Shown here: positions 32,358 to 39,880 of the stretch, in pieces
How the letters are laid out: every line of letters starts with the position of its first letter
Position numbering within the stretch: position 1 is the stretch's first letter
Assembly: GCF_002723975.1 (NCBI RefSeq)
Contig: NZ_BEWO01000003.1
Span: 62,001 to 126,000 of the forward strand
Length of the DNA: 64,000 nucleotides
Direction of reading: 5' to 3'
Source of the DNA: Gluconobacter japonicus
GTDB taxonomy: Bacteria; Pseudomonadota; Alphaproteobacteria; Acetobacterales; Acetobacteraceae
Notes under the pieces: model-generated
What the model was told of the DNA's origin: nothing
The model's input: the letters and a program-made list of their open reading frames with translations, nothing else
The model's database searches: none
Made by a program: the position numbers and the translations under genes

Positions 32358-33440
32358 TTGTCATTTTTTCCTGGATTTGCATCCCTCTTCCTTGCCTCGG
32401 TCCTTGGGGTCTCTGCTCAGGCCGCCTTCGCGACACCTCTTCCACCGCCAAAGGACCAACCTTCCCCGGACAGCCCGGCCTACATCGCAGAAGATCCTCA
32501 CCTCTCATCCTTGATCGGCAAACCTGCTCCTGCACTTCTTCTTAAAACCCTTGATAGACAAGACATCGACCTCTCCCGCTTTTACGGACGTCAGCCTGTT
32601 TATTTGAAACTCTGGGCCACCTACTGCATTCCCTGCCGCGCTCAGATGCCGGGATTTGAAAAACTCTACGGCACTTACAAAGATCGCATCCATATTATCG
32701 CCGTGGATGTCGGGTTCGGAGAAAACCGCAACAAAGTCGCGACTTTTGCCGAACATGCCGGCCTGACAATGCCTGTAGTCATGGATGATGGAAGCCTCAG
32801 CAACTGGCTGCACATCAAAGCGACCCCTTTGCATGTGCTGATTGATCGCAACGGCCGTATTGCCTATGTCGACCATCAGGATGGCGCTGCCCTTGAGACC
32901 GCTCTGGAAAAGGTTGTGAACACTCCACGCAGCACGGATAAAATCCAGCTTTCCACGACGCAACACCGCACGTCTTTACAGATTGGCCAGAAAGTACCTC
33001 ACATCGACCTGCCAGATGCTACAGGTCATGCAACAAACCTCGTATCCAACAATTCGCGTGTTCCACAGGCGATATTCTTTGGTGCAACTTGGTGTGAAAG
33101 CTATCTGAACACTGTCGAGCCCGAAACTGCCCAAGCCTGCAAACGCGCCCGCATCACCCTTCAGACACTGGCGCAGGATCATCACCTGAAATGGACTGCA
33201 GTTGCTGCCCATCTCTGGACGGAACTCTCAGATTTACCCGCTTATCAGACCCTCCTCGGCCCGGAACTCCCTGTAGTTCTCGACACAGATGGACTGGCGT
33301 TTGACACATTTGGAGTCACTCAGATCCCCGCGGTTGCCCTTATAGACAGTACAGGTCATCTGAAGCGCCTTCTTGATGCCAGACAAAGAGATATTGCGTC
33401 CCAAATTCAGTCCTTCATTCGCTCCTCTGCCAAACATTAA
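32358..33440 (+). CDS. secreted protein with two tandem thioredoxin-fold domains (TlpA-like)
   Basis: This 360 aa protein has a signal peptide (SLFLASVLGVSAQAAFA). The first thioredoxin-like domain (about 50-190) has the TlpA-type LWATYCIPCRAQMPGFEKLY with Cys90-x-x-Cys93. The second (about 208-355) has the same layout, but its motif reads ATWCESYL, so only one cysteine (Cys246) remains. Its cis-Pro loop QIPAVALID is present. It is likely a periplasmic thiol reductase with a redox-dead or single-cysteine second domain. The start is TTG at 32358, preceded by GGAAG; a stop codon just upstream excludes longer forms. Confidence 0.8.
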   Translation: MSFFPGFASLFLASVLGVSAQAAFATPLPPPKDQPSPDSPAYIAEDPHLSSLIGKPAPALLLKTLDRQDIDLSRFYGRQPVYLKLWATYCIPCRAQMPGFEKLYGTYKDRIHIIAVDVGFGENRNKVATFAEHAGLTMPVVMDDGSLSNWLHIKATPLHVLIDRNGRIAYVDHQDGAALETALEKVVNTPRSTDKIQLSTTQHRTSLQIGQKVPHIDLPDATGHATNLVSNNSRVPQAIFFGATWCESYLNTVEPETAQACKRARITLQTLAQDHHLKWTAVAAHLWTELSDLPAYQTLLGPELPVVLDTDGLAFDTFGVTQIPAVALIDSTGHLKRLLDARQRDIASQIQSFIRSSAKH

Positions 33441-33602: not shown

Positions 33603-33926
33603 ATGAAAAAAGGCGTAATCCTCACAGTATTGGGTACAGTCTTTTTACTTTCCTTTGCTCTACTCAACGCCATCATGTCACCGCATCATAGAGCGATGCC
33701 TACTTCGGCCGCCCGGCCTGATCCCTGCCAGTCCCCCGATCCAGAGAAACGCCCGGATGATTGCCGTAACCACGGGAGTTCCAGCGGCCACGGTTTTTAC
33801 TACCGTCGTTCACCAAATGACAGGAATGGCCCCTCTTCGGGTCATGGAGAAGCTGAAGCAGAGTCTGCCGGCCATGCAGGTTTTGGGGAAAGCGCCGGAG
33901 GCCACTCGGGCGGCGGTGGCGAGTAG
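33603..33926 (+). CDS. small membrane-anchored Gly/Ser/His-rich protein
   Basis: This 107 aa protein has one N-terminal hydrophobic segment (VILTVLGTVFLLSFALLNAIM). A short region with two cysteines (DPCQSPDPEKRPDDCRNHG) follows, then a low-complexity Gly-, Ser- and His-rich tail ending GGHSGGGGE. It starts ten bases before the glutathionylspermidine-synthase-like gene. The pairing of a small Cys- and Gly-rich exported protein with an ATP-grasp enzyme recalls E. coli ygiB-ygiC, so the tail could be the enzyme's substrate. Direct homology to YgiB is not certain. Confidence 0.6.
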   Translation: MKKGVILTVLGTVFLLSFALLNAIMSPHHRAMPTSAARPDPCQSPDPEKRPDDCRNHGSSSGHGFYYRRSPNDRNGPSSGHGEAEAESAGHAGFGESAGGHSGGGGE

Positions 33927-33935
33927 TCTTCTCTG

Positions 33936-35123
33936 ATGCCTCGCATCCACCGTCGCTTTTCTGAAGCCCGCCCAGACTGGATGTCACAGGCGGATCGTCT
34001 CGGATATCACTACTATAAAAATGCCGATGGCAGCTTCGCCTGGCGGGAAGACGTTCGGTACGAGTTTGATCGGTCATCTCTGACACTTATAAGATCCGTT
34101 ACCGAAACGCTTCATCAGTTGTGCCTTGATATCGTGGCAGAAGCCATCCATCGCCCCGAAGGACTGAACGAATTTCATATTCCAGCCCACGTGCAGGATG
34201 TGATCAGAGCCTCCTGGAGGCGCCAGGATCCATTTCTGATCGGACGATTTGACCTGGCCTGGTGCAAAGGTCAGCTTAAACTCATCGAATACAATGCTGA
34301 TACGCCTGCCACCCTGCCCGAAAGCACACGGATGCAAACCATGTGGCATCAGCAGAAAGGGCACCCCCATGACCATGCCCCACTGGAGGCCCATACACTC
34401 ATCCAGCATTTGCGGGAATTACGCCGAACAGGACGTATCGATCCGATCGTTCATATCGTCCCGTATCCTGACAATATCGAGGATACAACACACGCCGTCT
34501 ATTATGGAGAATGGGTCCAGCAGGCGGGCATGAAAGCCGTTCATTGCGAGTTGAAAGATCTGGACATCACCCATCAGGGGCAGCTTTTGCACCAGGGTCG
34601 GATCGTCCGAAGCATGATCCGCATGTATCCTTGGGAGCTGATGTTTCGCGATCCCGGAGCACACCATCTTCAGAACTGTGGCTGCACGTTTCTCAATCCG
34701 CCATGGACGGCCCTGCTATCCAACAAGGCCCTCCTTCCCGCACTCTGGAAACGCTTTCCGGGACATCCGAACCTGCTGGCTGCCGGATATTCTCCGCAGG
34801 ATGTCACCGCTCTGCGTCCCGGACCTTATGTTGAAAAGCCCCTACACGCCCGAGGCGGCGAAAATGTTCGTGTCATGATCGGAGAAAAAGTTATTTGCGC
34901 ACAGGATGGTACTTATGGTGCCTATCCTCGCATTTATCAGGAATTCGCAGATCACCGTATTGACGGAGTGACGGCGTCCATCGGGGCATGGACGATCGGG
35001 GATCGGTTTGCAGGCCTGACCATGCGGGAAAGTCCTGATCCAATCGTTCGACATACGTCACCGATCGTGCCGCATATTGTTCGGAAAGACAGTTTTCTTT
35101 CCCGCATACTGAAGTGGCGCTGA
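33936..35123 (+). CDS. glutathionylspermidine synthase-like ATP-grasp ligase (YgiC type)
   Basis: This 395 aa protein belongs to the glutathionylspermidine synthetase C-terminal fold, which joins a carboxyl group to an amine using ATP. It has GRFDLAWCKGQLKLIEYNADTPATLPES, VEKPLHARGGENVRV with the ATP-grasp Lys and Gly-rich loop, and ASIGAWTIGDRFAGLTMRES near the end. The amidase half of the E. coli GspSA enzyme is missing, as in YgiC and YjfC. The real substrate of such stand-alone proteins is unknown. It is convergent with the alpha-E gene, 34 bases apart. Confidence 0.88.
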   Translation: MPRIHRRFSEARPDWMSQADRLGYHYYKNADGSFAWREDVRYEFDRSSLTLIRSVTETLHQLCLDIVAEAIHRPEGLNEFHIPAHVQDVIRASWRRQDPFLIGRFDLAWCKGQLKLIEYNADTPATLPESTRMQTMWHQQKGHPHDHAPLEAHTLIQHLRELRRTGRIDPIVHIVPYPDNIEDTTHAVYYGEWVQQAGMKAVHCELKDLDITHQGQLLHQGRIVRSMIRMYPWELMFRDPGAHHLQNCGCTFLNPPWTALLSNKALLPALWKRFPGHPNLLAAGYSPQDVTALRPGPYVEKPLHARGGENVRVMIGEKVICAQDGTYGAYPRIYQEFADHRIDGVTASIGAWTIGDRFAGLTMRESPDPIVRHTSPIVPHIVRKDSFLSRILKWR

Positions 35124-35157
35124 CAGATTTTAATCTTCTACCCCTGCGCTGACACCA

Positions 35158-36189
35158 TCATTGCTCCATATAACATTCCGGAACATGGAGTTTTTCAATC
35201 GGAGGCCAATAGGCAGCGGCAGCTTCATTCTGAATGGCTTCGATCTGCTCCTGAATCCAGTACATGTATTCATGCAAACCACGAATAATGATATCTTCCG
35301 CTGTTTGGTCTTCCAGCGTAGCGCGGAGTTCGGACAATCGCTCCTGAATGGCGTAATTTTGCCGTCGCAGATTATAATGTGCGGACAAGGCTGCCAGAAC
35401 CGCATCCGTCTGCCGCAGATTCAGGGCCAGAGATCTGGGGAAACCTTCATTCTTCAATAGAAAGCCGACAACATTCGCCGGCGTTGTCGTTACCGGCTGC
35501 AAGCGACGAAACGCATGGTAAGCTGCCGCAGAGCGCAGAACAGAGGCCCACTGCGTCGTATCAATTTCCGACCCGACTTCTTCCTCACACGGAAGAAGCG
35601 TGTGATACCGCGTATCAATAAGGCGGGTAATCTGATCGCTGCGTTCCAGATGACGGTCGAGAAGATAAAAGAGCCACGCCTGATCGCGGTACAACGTCCC
35701 TTCCGTCACGCCCGTATGAGTCTGACAATCCTGCTTGATCCTGTTGCACAGCGCAGAAAGACCGGTTCGACGAATGTCTGACGGATCAAGATCCAGAACC
35801 CATCGTGTGAAGACGTTCAGATGCATCCACATTTCCGTGGAAATCAGCGGTCGCGCAGAGCGGGCATTCTCACGCACGGCATTCGCCATCCCTTTGATGG
35901 AGCTGGGATTGGCCAGATCGGTGATATAGAACTGGATATAATCCTGCTCCGTTGCCGCAGGATGCAGTGCCTGAAAACGCCCCTCATCGGAGTTGATCTG
36001 AACGATCGTCTCCCAAACGGTCCGGCCATCCGGTCCTCGGACGAACGCTTCCGTAACTTCAATCAGACGGGCCAGATTCTCGATACGCTCCATGTAACGC
36101 GCCAGCCACATCATGCTCTCGGCATAACGGGACAACAGCGTGTTGAGGTTGGAAAGCATCCCGGTCGAGGTTGGAGAAAGCTGTGTCAT
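35158..36189 (-). CDS. alpha-E domain protein (DUF403)
   Basis: This 343 aa all-helical protein of the alpha-E family has the family N-terminus LLSRYAESMMWLARYMERIENLARLIEVTEAF and repeated Asp/Arg/Glu-rich helices. The family is found almost only next to circularly permuted ATP-grasp and transglutaminase-like genes, and its biochemical role is not known. The start is the ATG at 36189, which overlaps the upstream stop codon as ATGA, so it is translationally coupled to the ATP-grasp gene. A longer start at 36204 is possible but less typical. Confidence 0.9.
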   Translation of the reverse strand: MTQLSPTSTGMLSNLNTLLSRYAESMMWLARYMERIENLARLIEVTEAFVRGPDGRTVWETIVQINSDEGRFQALHPAATEQDYIQFYITDLANPSSIKGMANAVRENARSARPLISTEMWMHLNVFTRWVLDLDPSDIRRTGLSALCNRIKQDCQTHTGVTEGTLYRDQAWLFYLLDRHLERSDQITRLIDTRYHTLLPCEEEVGSEIDTTQWASVLRSAAAYHAFRRLQPVTTTPANVVGFLLKNEGFPRSLALNLRQTDAVLAALSAHYNLRRQNYAIQERLSELRATLEDQTAEDIIIRGLHEYMYWIQEQIEAIQNEAAAAYWPPIEKLHVPECYMEQ

Positions 36190-37658
36190 ACGGACATCAC
36201 CCATGTATCCTTGGACCCACCGCCCTGAGAAGAATTCACGACCAGAGACCCCTTGCGGAGAGCCACACGGGACAAGCCGCCCGGAAGAACCCAGGTCGAT
36301 TTTCCAGTCAATGCAAAGGGACGCAGATCAACATGCCGCGCCTCCACACCCGCATCACACAAAGTAGGGGCTACAGACAGGTCAATGACAGGCTGGCTGA
36401 TGTAATTTGACGGGTTATCAAGCAGACGCTGCCGGAAATCCTCCAGTTCGCTTTCGGTGGCGTGCGGCCCGATCAGCAGACCATATCCCCCGGATTCTCC
36501 AACAGGCTTCACGACCAGTTTTTCAAGATTGGCCAATGTAAAAGCCAACCCTTCTGGTTCGGCGCAGATATGCGTCTCTACACTTCCCAGAATAGGCTCT
36601 TCATCAAGGTAATATCGGATGATCCGGGGCATATACGCATAGACTGCCTTGTCGTCCGCAACACCTGTCCCCAACGCATTGGCAATCGTTACGTTACCGC
36701 GTCGATATGCTTCGACCAGCCCTGGTACGCCAAGAAGACTTTCCGGATTGAATGCCAACGGGTCCAGAAAAGCGTCGTCGATGCGACGATAGATGGAATG
36801 GACCGGCCTCAGGCCTGCGACGGTCCGCATGTAAACATGGTGGTTTTCGACCAGAAGATCGCGCCCCTCCACGAGAGGAACACCCATTTCCCGCGCCAGA
36901 AACACATGCTCAAAATAAGCAGAGTTATAGATCCCCGGAGACAGCAGAACGACCTGTGGGTTTTCGACTCCTTTGGGTGCCACGTCACACAAAGCCCGGT
37001 GCAATCGGAGACCATAGTCCTCAACGGAGCGCAGCGGCATACCGGATGCCAGATCCGGCATCAGCCGCAGCATCATATGACGGTTCTCGATCACATATGA
37101 CACACCCGACGGGGTTCTCGCATTGTCCTCCAGAACCAGAAAACGCCCGCTCCGATCCCGGATCAGATCCGTCCCGTTGATATGAACATAAACACCTCCC
37201 GGAACATCGACGCCGACCATGGCCTGACAATAATTGGCATTTTTCAACACCAGATCAGCGGGAATCAGGCCATCCTGAAGGATCTTCCGGTCATGGTAGA
37301 TGTCCCACAGAAACATGTTGATCGCTTTGACGCGCTGTTGCACGCCGCGCTCGATAAAGGCCCATTCCTCGGCTGTCAGGACACGGGGAATGACATCGAA
37401 CGGCAAAACGCGGTCAATGGCTTCCCGGTCCGAATAGACGGTGAACGTAATGCCCAGACGATAGAGCTGGGTTTCAGCATTCGCGGTGCGGTGCCGCAAT
37501 TCCTTGATGTCAAAATGGGCCAGACGTTCCTGAACCTGCCGGAGAGCTTCTGGAAGGTCTTCTCCACGGTTCATCAGTTCGCAAAAGAATTCAGGCCTGT
37601 GATAGGCAGAAAAAATACCGGCTTCCTGGGCCTGGGAGTGCAAGACGTTGGACTTCAT
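36186..37658 (-). CDS. circularly permuted ATP-grasp protein (DUF404/DUF407)
   Basis: This 490 aa protein is of the circularly permuted ATP-grasp type, predicted to form peptide or amide bonds. Key parts are RVKAINMFLWDIYHDRKIL, GTDLIRDRSGRFLVLEDNARTPSGVSYVIENR, the DLLVENHHVYMRTVAGLRPVHSIYRRIDDAFLDPL stretch, and the late nucleotide-binding loop VVKPVGESGGYG. The final part resembles the active-site tail (RPFALTGKSTWVLPGGLSRVA). It is the first gene of the alpha-E transcript and divergent from the transglutaminase-like gene, separated by 258 bases. Confidence 0.92.
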   Translation of the reverse strand: MKSNVLHSQAQEAGIFSAYHRPEFFCELMNRGEDLPEALRQVQERLAHFDIKELRHRTANAETQLYRLGITFTVYSDREAIDRVLPFDVIPRVLTAEEWAFIERGVQQRVKAINMFLWDIYHDRKILQDGLIPADLVLKNANYCQAMVGVDVPGGVYVHINGTDLIRDRSGRFLVLEDNARTPSGVSYVIENRHMMLRLMPDLASGMPLRSVEDYGLRLHRALCDVAPKGVENPQVVLLSPGIYNSAYFEHVFLAREMGVPLVEGRDLLVENHHVYMRTVAGLRPVHSIYRRIDDAFLDPLAFNPESLLGVPGLVEAYRRGNVTIANALGTGVADDKAVYAYMPRIIRYYLDEEPILGSVETHICAEPEGLAFTLANLEKLVVKPVGESGGYGLLIGPHATESELEDFRQRLLDNPSNYISQPVIDLSVAPTLCDAGVEARHVDLRPFALTGKSTWVLPGGLSRVALRKGSLVVNSSQGGGSKDTWVMSV

Positions 37659-37916
37659 CTGTGTGCCCCGCTTCCTTACCCGACGATTGTATGAAGCATA
37701 CCCGGCCGGATCATTACGATTATTTATTAACCTATCAATTCCGCCCTGTTTGCCAAGCAGGAAAACACGAAGCCGTTCCGTTTTTTCCAGATCATATCAG
37801 GAGAGTTGCCGTTCCTGTTCTTCCTGTTACGATAGGAGAAGGATCAGGAACCACGCCCGCATCTTTCCAAGGCAAGAAACAGACACTCATGCGCGGCTTT
37901 CAGGAAACATGAGAGA

Positions 37917-38759
37917 ATGAACACGCCCGTGATGATCCGTCATCACACTTCTTACCGCTATGATCGTCCCGTGTTTCTGGGTCCTCAGACGATCCGCCTG
38001 CGCCCCCCGGCCAGAGCGTCCAATACGGTTCTGGCTTACGCCCTGAGCGTCGGCCCGGGCGAGAGTCATCTTGTCTGGCAGCAGGATCAGCACGCCAACA
38101 CCGTTGCCGAAGCCGTTTTCCGGGACAGGATGTCGCATTTCGATATTGAAGTCCGCATGACGGTGGACCTGACCCCTTATGATCCTCTTGCTGCTCTTTC
38201 TTCCTCTTTCGAAGAGACGCAACCGTCTTACAGACAGCCTATCGCTGACACGTCCGTTCTCGAAACCTTTCTGGCTGGATCGTTTTCCACATCCGGAGAC
38301 ACGGATCTCGATCGACTGATCTGGCTTAATCGTCGGATTGCAGCGACTCTTCGTTATCAACCCCGCATGGAGCCGGGGATCTGGGCACCCGTAGAAACCC
38401 TTTCCCGCCAAACAGGCTCCTGCCGGGACAGCGCCTGGCTTCTCGTCGCCCTTGCACGTCATCTTGGTTTCGCAGCACGCTTCGTCTCTGGATATCTCAT
38501 CCAGCCTGCCGCGCAGGACAACAACCAAAACGCCCTGACCTGTGACCTGCACGCCTGGGCAGAAATCCTGCTCCCCCACAACGGCTGGCTCGGCTTCGAT
38601 ACGACATCCGGTCTGATTACGGCGCAGAACCATATTCCCCTCGCTGTTTCCGCAACGCCGGAAGACGCTGCGCCAGTTTCGGGGTTGCTGGATCACTGTC
38701 AGGCCCGTTTTGACGTTCTGATGGAAGCCGAGCATTTGCATGAAGTGGCAAAGACCTGA
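37917..38759 (+). CDS. transglutaminase-like cysteine protease family protein
   Basis: This 280 aa protein has the bacterial transglutaminase-like N-terminal domain (MIRHHTSYRYDRPVFLGPQTIRLRPPARA). Its catalytic domain carries the triad: Cys in TGSCRDSAWLLVALARHLGF, His in HAWAEILLPHNGWLGFD, and the following Asp in that same block. There is no signal peptide, so it is cytoplasmic. Members of this family cleave or form isopeptide-like bonds and regularly occur with the alpha-E and ATP-grasp pair, to which it is divergent here. It is followed 38 bases later by the metallopeptidase. Confidence 0.9.
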   Translation: MNTPVMIRHHTSYRYDRPVFLGPQTIRLRPPARASNTVLAYALSVGPGESHLVWQQDQHANTVAEAVFRDRMSHFDIEVRMTVDLTPYDPLAALSSSFEETQPSYRQPIADTSVLETFLAGSFSTSGDTDLDRLIWLNRRIAATLRYQPRMEPGIWAPVETLSRQTGSCRDSAWLLVALARHLGFAARFVSGYLIQPAAQDNNQNALTCDLHAWAEILLPHNGWLGFDTTSGLITAQNHIPLAVSATPEDAAPVSGLLDHCQARFDVLMEAEHLHEVAKT

Positions 38760-38797
38760 CATCATGCTTCGGCAAGAGCCGCAAAGGTGCCGAAGCT

Positions 38798-39880
38798 GTG
38801 AAACTTTTCTCGTGTCAGTGTTGTCAGCAGGCTCTGTACTTCGAAAATACGACCTGTGAATCCTGCCATCATCCGGTAGGCTACCTTCCAGGCCTGTCCG
38901 TCCTGACGGCTCTTGAACCTATGGGGCACGGTCGATGGCACCCGATGGAGCCACAGGTACGAAACGCAGAACTGGTTTACTGCTCCAACCATGAGCATGA
39001 CGCCTGCAACTGGCTCACGACCCCGAGCCAGACAGGCCAGCCGCCCATCTGTTTTGCCTGTAGGTTCAATCGGACCATTCCCAATCTGAAAGATCCGAAA
39101 AACCTTGAGCGGTGGCGGAAAATCGAAGTCGCCAAGCACCGTCTGTTTTACACGTTGATACGCCTGAAACTTCCGATCCGGAGTTGGCGGGAAGATCCGG
39201 ATAACGGGCTTGCCTTCGATTTTCTCGACGATGCCCCGGACGGCTCAGCCCCCGTCATGACAGGCCATAATAACGGCCTCATCACCCTCGCCATCCGGGA
39301 AGCCGACGATGCAGAGCGCGAGCGCATGCGCGTTGAGATGGGGGAATATTACCGCACCCTTCTCGGGCATTTCCGCCACGAGATCGGCCATTATTACTGG
39401 AACGTTCTGGTGCGTGATGCCGGACGCCTGGAAAGCTGCCGCGCCATCTTCGGAGATGACAGTCAGGACTATCAGGAAGCCCTGCAACGCCATTATAACA
39501 ATCCTCCTCCGGAAGACTGGCGCGAACGCCACGTCAGCAGCTATGCGACATCTCACCCATGGGAAGACTTTGCCGAAACATGGGCCCACTACCTGCACAT
39601 CGTCTCCACACTGGAAACGGCCTGGGCTTACGGCGTCACGATCCATCCGGGCATCCCAGACCCATCCACCCTGTCGACGGATGGCCCGATGAATGACCCT
39701 TATCTGACCGCCACTTTTGACGAGATCATGGATGCGTGGGTTCCGCTGACCTCTGCCGTCAACAGCCTCAACCGATCCATGGGGCTGGCTGATTTTTACC
39801 CCTTTGTCCTGACGGTCGGCGTGCGCGAGAAGCTGGCATTCATCCACGCCCTGATCCGGGAAACACAGGCTCTTCGTTAG
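38798..39880 (+). CDS. putative zinc metallopeptidase with N-terminal zinc ribbon
   Basis: This 360 aa protein starts with a CxxC-x(n)-CxxC zinc ribbon (FSCQCCQQALYFENTTCESCHHPVG), which a second Cys-rich segment follows. The peptidase motif is FRHEIGHYYW, with His-Glu-x-x-His, and the conserved block HPWEDFAETWAHYLHI supplies the third-ligand region. This is the pattern of the Peptidase_Mx-type family, which usually accompanies the transglutaminase and circularly permuted ATP-grasp genes. The start is GTG, with AGG ten bases upstream. Its 3' end overlaps the LysR gene by four bases. Confidence 0.88.
   Translation: MKLFSCQCCQQALYFENTTCESCHHPVGYLPGLSVLTALEPMGHGRWHPMEPQVRNAELVYCSNHEHDACNWLTTPSQTGQPPICFACRFNRTIPNLKDPKNLERWRKIEVAKHRLFYTLIRLKLPIRSWREDPDNGLAFDFLDDAPDGSAPVMTGHNNGLITLAIREADDAERERMRVEMGEYYRTLLGHFRHEIGHYYWNVLVRDAGRLESCRAIFGDDSQDYQEALQRHYNNPPPEDWRERHVSSYATSHPWEDFAETWAHYLHIVSTLETAWAYGVTIHPGIPDPSTLSTDGPMNDPYLTATFDEIMDAWVPLTSAVNSLNRSMGLADFYPFVLTVGVREKLAFIHALIRETQALR

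Follow-up and report, generated by a model that had tools for sequence, protein, structure and literature searches.

A YgiC-type ligase gene and its small membrane-protein partner lie beside, and probably work separately from, an alpha-E gene set in Gluconobacter japonicus

Six adjacent genes at positions 33603–39880 of a 64,000-nt stretch of the Gluconobacter japonicus genome (the window; genome G000, contig 3) encode two different ATP-grasp ligases and four accompanying proteins. The original prediction placed six genes of these families here, as the open reading frame (ORF) listing of the window and Pfam searches confirm, and it joined the two ligases in one undescribed amide-bond system. 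We consider it probable, at roughly 60%, that the block instead holds two separate systems that are neighbours by accident of gene order: a YgiB/YgiC-type pair that ligates an amine to the tail of a small protein, and an alpha-E set that is a variant of the Anbu association. Two systems are recognized, not one, because the ligase pair and the alpha-E set vary independently in their occurrence. The stronger lead from this locus is the smaller set, a ligase beside a small membrane protein with a conserved substrate-like tail, and not a joint system of six genes. The genes are:

33603–33926, plus strand: Gly-rich small protein, 107 amino acids (ORF), with a hydrophobic N-terminal stretch, a Cys pair, a Gly/Ser/His-rich body and the C-terminal tail AGFGESAGGHSGGGGE; candidate ligase substrate
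33936–35123, plus strand: YgiC/YjfC-like ATP-grasp ligase, 395 amino acids; PF03738 (GSP_synth), 347.8 bits
35158–36204, minus strand: alpha-E protein, 348 amino acids; PF04168 (Alpha-E), 253.1 bits; ER motif seen by eye
36186–37658, minus strand: circularly permuted ATP-grasp ligase, 490 amino acids; PF14403 (CP_ATPgrasp_2), 530.1 bits; solved relative 3n6x, E=4.7e-168
37917–38759, plus strand: transglutaminase-like protein, 280 amino acids; PF08379 (Bact_transglu_N), 75.7 bits, and PF01841 (Transglut_core), 65.6 bits; Cys-His-Asp seen by eye
38798–39880, plus strand: zinc-ribbon and metallopeptidase protein, 360 amino acids, with a HEIGH site; PF10005 (Zn_ribbon_DZR_6), 84.7 bits, and PF15887 (Peptidase_Mx), 366.1 bits

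Two genes run rightward, two leftward and two rightward. The alpha-E gene converges with the ligase gene, tail to tail with 34 bp separating the frames, and the transglutaminase and metallopeptidase genes diverge from the ATP-grasp gene. Three strand groups mean that the six genes are not one operon.

Across the family, the two halves of the block are distributed independently. In an even set of 120 Acetobacteraceae genomes, which includes the window genome, alpha-E occurs in 98, the ligase family in 17 and the peptidase (Mx) family in 50; two genomes (G038 and G047) have the ligase without alpha-E, and carriage of the two is not associated (Fisher p=0.74). Among 20 ligase matches compared, that of the window alone has a listed alpha-E gene within 10 kb. 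This comparison took 20 of 22 ligase matches (second fragments of G048 and G117 were left out), 48 of 52 Mx matches (partial matches in G021, G022 and G067 were left out) and at least 150 alpha-E matches, with secondary copies missing for some genomes, including the ligase-bearing G028, G036, G115, G117 and G119. Because alpha-E positions are those of the matches listed, the 10-kb count could overlook secondary copies; the immediate surroundings are covered by tblastn of the window proteins, in which alpha-E, ATP-grasp, transglutaminase and Mx gave no matches in 51 ligase loci (21 from the family and 30 from the class, with about 1.5 kb of flank per side, less at contig ends). A comparable search of 30 alpha-E loci does detect alpha-E (27–52% identity) and ATP-grasp (50–69%). 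In the 16 other family genomes with a ligase, alpha-E never adjoins it, either in the ~1.5 kb check or within 10 kb of a listed alpha-E. Escherichia coli K-12 carries ygiBC and yjfMC, and E. coli, the control of the alpha-E search, gives no match.

The same separation is seen within the genus. Alpha-E is present in 21 of 26 Gluconobacter genomes and the ligase in nine (one of them broken), all of which are among the 21. Ligase and alpha-E adjoin in two of these 21: the window and Gluconobacter frateurii (G125), where the ligase is broken; of the 20 other alpha-E genes in the genus, that of G. frateurii (locus L110) alone has a ligase next to it. There, the ligase gene is in fragments, with internal stops, and alpha-E, ATP-grasp and Mx are 97–99% identical to those of the window. 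The decayed pair lies at the same site (L110 9734–9988 and 10001–11018), and its small ORF retains the conserved tail end. The upstream flank of the window genes (TonB receptor, major facilitator superfamily transporter and Cu/Zn superoxide dismutase) recurs in G140, where it leads directly to alpha-E with the pair absent, and the ligase was not found anywhere in that genome. The remaining seven Gluconobacter ligase genes are on other contigs or lie ~71 and ~78 kb away (G129 and G130). The ligase pair and the alpha-E set are, thus, separable in both directions. The original prediction had suggested following the pair beside the alpha-E/ATP-grasp genes across Acetobacteraceae; the pair drifts independently, and the proposed link between the two ligases, which are neighbours in two of 21 Gluconobacter and in none of the 16 other ligase-bearing family genomes, does not hold. 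Adjacency should not be equated with function: two peptide-ligase systems touch here, yet they occur separately elsewhere.

Both halves of the block belong to known kinds. The ligase is a member of PF03738, which it matches far above the cut-off of 29.3 bits, and its nearest solved structures are E. coli YgiC (7uk8, E=2e-61) and YjfC (7uk6, 3.8e-58), with trypanothione synthetase and Gsp ranking behind. Gsp of E. coli, the glutathionylspermidine synthetase/amidase, has a homologous synthetase domain, and seven aligned catalytic-type residues are kept, whereas the window ligase lacks an amidase domain (395 versus 619 amino acids; the synthetase profile alone exceeds its cut-off). In a structure-free alignment of 60 sequences (17 from the acetic-acid clade and 43 others), R104, D106, E118, N120, K264, K301 and R364 are at least 97% conserved. 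They align with Gsp R316, D318, E330, N332, K498, K533 and R598, respectively, which we take to be catalytic and metal-binding residues of Gsp synthetase. The ratio of nonsynonymous to synonymous substitution (dN/dS) of the ligase is 0.12 and 0.10 against two relatives, with dS saturated. Plasmid relatives number 153 records, all below 60% identity. Tandem divergent GSP_synth genes also occur in the family (L045 and L049 in G107:C85; L048 and L052 in G104:C12), with 25–28% identity to the window ligase.

The ligase is also not undescribed, as had been proposed. E. coli YgiC and YjfC are reported as peptide-spermidine ligases in the title of Pederick 2023, as given in reference lists, and the RefSeq product name for ygiC and yjfC is peptide--spermidine ligase. 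PMC12568646 terms these enzymes peptidylpolyamine synthetases, a passage of PMC12506659 states that YgiC lacks the activity of Gsp, and a passage of PMC11237479 describes operons in which a related ATP-grasp peptide ligase occurs with DUF350 and DUF1190. Neither this kind of ligase nor its DUF1190 neighbour is, therefore, new. YgiC-type ligases are widespread in bacteria, including E. coli, and the literature passages do not state their natural substrate.

A candidate for that substrate is encoded immediately upstream. The Gly-rich gene directly precedes the ligase gene, with 9 bp from stop codon to next start and similar spacing in relatives, and an N-terminal hydrophobic stretch, judged by eye, would serve as a membrane anchor. 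Near its end is a feature defined in this analysis, the tail, in which AGFG begins 16 residues before the C-terminus. Relatives with the same tail precede ligase genes in acetic acid bacteria, and the small proteins upstream of ligase genes are in general widely divergent and alike at their C-terminal end. The tail scan covered 26 acetic-acid loci (eight identical tails were dropped and 18 kept; L110 has the broken ligase) and 30 class loci, the latter being the 30 best of matches in 41 genomes. An upstream ORF with [GSA]G[FY]G near its end is present in 28 of the 30 class loci, with RGGFG the commonest form by eye. The motif starts 14–17 residues before the C-terminus in 24 of these 28 partners, whose ORFs are 144 to 358 amino acids long counted from the first possible start. 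Of 840 class-locus ORFs of 45–420 amino acids, the motif stands 11–23 residues before the end in 28, every one of them a partner. Control loci, drawn from the family where the test loci were drawn from the class, give 4/2021 ORFs with the motif (0/658 at alpha-E, 3/755 at Mx and 1/608 at PF00227 loci). One of the two class exceptions, locus L216, carries the motif in a longer ORF, 27 residues before the end. In the family, 13 of 21 ligase loci were scanned, 12 of which have a tail ORF upstream (~290–300 bp from the ligase in L041 and L042), and L043 has one downstream; seven loci scanned later (L045 and L047 to L052) have none, and L046 was left out. Among the titles and abstract openings listed for the YgiB/YgiC-type literature, with most subscription papers outside the scope, none mentions such a tail.

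The E. coli pairs YgiB-YgiC and YjfM-YjfC are alike in ligase family, in a partner gene directly upstream and in a GGFG or GGYG partner tail (RGGFG in YgiB, RGGYG in YjfM). They differ in that the window partner has only 107 amino acids, lacks a DUF1190 match and ends in Gly-Glu where YgiB and YjfM end in Gly-Gly, and in that the E. coli yjf operon has PspA, DUF2491 and DUF350 genes that are not alongside the window pair. The Gly-rich protein has no Pfam or NCBIfam match at E up to 0.01 and no DUF1190 (PF06693) match at E up to 1, and it is not placed in that family. All three class partners tested match DUF1190 (97.7, 112.3 and 126.8 bits), a short Acetobacteraceae partner (L033) barely passes (25.1 bits, cut-off 22) and four others (L038, L040, L098 and L105) do not match. 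Membership of the Gly-rich protein in DUF1190 was considered and found no support in Pfam or in a profile comparison. Its descent from YgiB is plausible, although that comparison falls short of establishing it.

Positions 33603–35123 would then be a shortened YgiB/YgiC-type module. The membrane-anchored small protein would present its C-terminal tail, the ligase would activate the C-terminal carboxylate of the tail with ATP, and the activated tail would be joined to an amine, probably a polyamine or similar. The original suggestion that the Gly-rich protein is a substrate is strengthened by a conserved tail that accompanies the ligase family across the class, and it falls short of proof. The tail is compact and tracks the ligase gene across the class. 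As a candidate natural substrate of YgiC-type enzymes that takes its own form in acetic acid bacteria, it offers a concrete and cheap route to test the target of the ligase.

The acetic-acid form differs in both partner and ligase. All 18 distinct partners scanned in the ligase clade of the window end in Gly-Gly-Glu and have AGFG or AGYG 15–16 residues before the end, as does that of the window itself. Partners from outside the clade (28 from the class and 11 from elsewhere in the family) end in Gly, Ser or Thr. The 17 clade ligases differ from the 43 others, and from E. coli YgiC and YjfC, at 20 otherwise conserved columns. Asn254 replaces a Glu found in 43/43 others and aligned with Gsp E488; Ser366 replaces Asp (41/43 others; Gsp D600); Gly307 replaces Glu (39/43 others), where Gsp has Cys; and Pro376 replaces Arg (40/43 others; Gsp D610). 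With acidic residues lost from a polyamine-using enzyme, the clade ligase may use a different amine or seat the tail differently. The spermidine synthase family PF01564 is present in 26/26 Gluconobacter, so the amine may still be spermidine itself. A fuller proposal has two parts: that most YgiC-type ligases recognize as their substrate signal the tail with its GFG motif about 15 residues before a small or Glu terminus, even though their partners share little else that is recognizable, and that in acetic acid bacteria the amine joined to the Gly-Gly-Glu tail is not spermidine. The second part would match the lost acidic positions, and the whole is put forward tentatively, as somewhat doubtful.

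The second half of the block, 35158–39880, is a variant of the published alpha-E/permuted ATP-grasp/transglutaminase association with a zinc peptidase alongside and Anbu not found. Passages of PMC6376114 and PMC5666114 describe the Anbu operon, credited to Iyer et al. 2009, as ATP-grasp, alpha-E, transglutaminase and proteasome-like Anbu genes, for which tagging or peptide synthesis is proposed and the physiological substrate is not known; PMC6376114 also reports that the Yersinia ATP-grasp protein releases phosphate from ATP. The window has the same three families side by side by Pfam, in two divergent pairs and not the single operon of an Anbu-type system, with a zinc-ribbon metallopeptidase gene and without a detected Anbu. 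A Burkholderia cenocepacia cluster (DUF403/DUF404-407/transglutaminase) has these three families as well and depends on NtrC and sigma-54, according to passages of PMC5491218. The four-gene co-occurrence in the original prediction is, thus, published for alpha-E, ATP-grasp and transglutaminase (PMC6376114, PMC5666114), and a metallopeptidase is not named as a fourth member in the literature passages on the Anbu operon. The ligase of this set would make an amide, and the two hydrolase-like enzymes would trim, transfer or remove it.

In the metallopeptidase, H194, E195 and H198 do not vary among 16 aligned members, and there is no solved relative at E up to 0.01. ATP-grasp/alpha-E is flanked by both transglutaminase and Mx genes in 19 of the 21 Gluconobacter with alpha-E, and has Mx beside it in 20 of 21. 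The two remaining loci depart from this in different ways: one retains ATP-grasp, alpha-E and Mx without a transglutaminase match, and the other has ATP-grasp and alpha-E only (L137 in G128 and L136 in G143, respectively). The transglutaminase evolves faster than its surroundings, with dN/dS of 0.12–0.13 against 0.01–0.04 for four neighbours. It is 77–81% identical to two relatives (L110 13870–14721 and L138 11499–12338), in which the adjoining alpha-E, ATP-grasp, Mx and LysR are 95–99% identical.

Several points count against our account, and they are given here together with the alternatives. The alternative that survives best concerns the alpha-E set, which may be an Anbu-type system in which Mx has replaced the original peptidase. 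Three of the four Anbu-operon components are present, Mx adjoins the set in nearly all Gluconobacter, and Anbu was not found in 26/26 genomes of the genus with an Anbu-like protein from L024 as query, a search without a positive control. A candidate Anbu elsewhere in the window genome was rejected: the sole PF00227 match, next to an HslU-like gene, is interpreted as HslV, and the Anbu-like query returned nothing. Absence by the PF00227 model is itself uncertain, as Anbu scores weakly with it (about 20–32 bits), and weak matches lie beside alpha-E in six other family genomes. Four genomes with window-like ATP-grasp (loci L023, L028, L029 and L031; 66–69% identity) lack an Mx match and also lack a PF00227 match next to alpha-E. 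Across the family, only 12 of 48 Mx matches are within 10 kb of a listed alpha-E, which makes replacement of Anbu by Mx a local possibility and not a rule. We regard such a swap as a reasonable possibility that stops short of even odds. A PF00227 (HslV) match is also present in 8/26 Gluconobacter as against 107/120 family genomes, which suggests loss of hslV across much of the genus.

A different role for the Gly-rich protein is unlikely but deserves consideration. Its tail might dock, localize or regulate the ligase, or the protein might bind metal. A docking motif would yield equal conservation. The anchor would also place the tail on the far side of the membrane from the ATP that the ligase requires, and ligation would have to come before export if the tail is the substrate. 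DUF1190 proteins are termed metal-chelating lipoproteins in a passage of PMC11237479, and the window protein is His-rich with a Cys pair. The tail ORF is also not universal: within the loci covered, it was not found at class locus L200, beside either set of tandem ligases (G107:C85 and G104:C12), near the broken ligase of G048 or at one short fragment locus. A comparison of window-type and YgiB-type profiles aligns the tail alone, with a probability of 1.9% (E=0.026), which does not establish homology. Set against these points, the terminus itself is constrained (Glu in the acetic-acid clade, Gly/Ser/Thr elsewhere) and the distance from motif to end is nearly fixed, as would be expected if the C-terminal carboxylate is what the ligase acts on. 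The related enzyme Gsp uses the C-terminal carboxylate of glutathione. The tail as ligase substrate is, for these reasons, the reading that we prefer.

The remaining alternative, that all six genes form one amide-bond system, with a peptide or tag made from the Gly-rich protein by the two ligases and trimmed by the two peptidases, is highly improbable and was rejected: the genes are physically adjacent, the decayed pair in G. frateurii makes that adjacency older than one strain and not a single strain's accident, and most ligase genomes also carry alpha-E (15/17 in the family and 9/9 in the genus), but neighbour conservation fails across family and genus, an intact ligase of the family is missing from 13 of 21 alpha-E-bearing Gluconobacter, seven of eight intact Gluconobacter ligases are on another contig or ~71–78 kb off, members of the alpha-E set are absent from the 51 ligase loci, and the ligase and alpha-E genes are convergent.

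Other features of the window are few. It has no tRNA genes, and promoter-like sites (5 found, 4.8 expected) and terminator-like sites (9 found, 7.9 expected) occur at chance level, so that transcription units are inferred from strand alone. A thioredoxin-like (AhpC-TSA/Redoxin) gene at 32358–33440 lies immediately upstream of the Gly-rich gene. It has no counterpart at the corresponding site in G140 or along 9.7 kb of upstream sequence in G. frateurii, nor any match in the remaining comparison loci searched.

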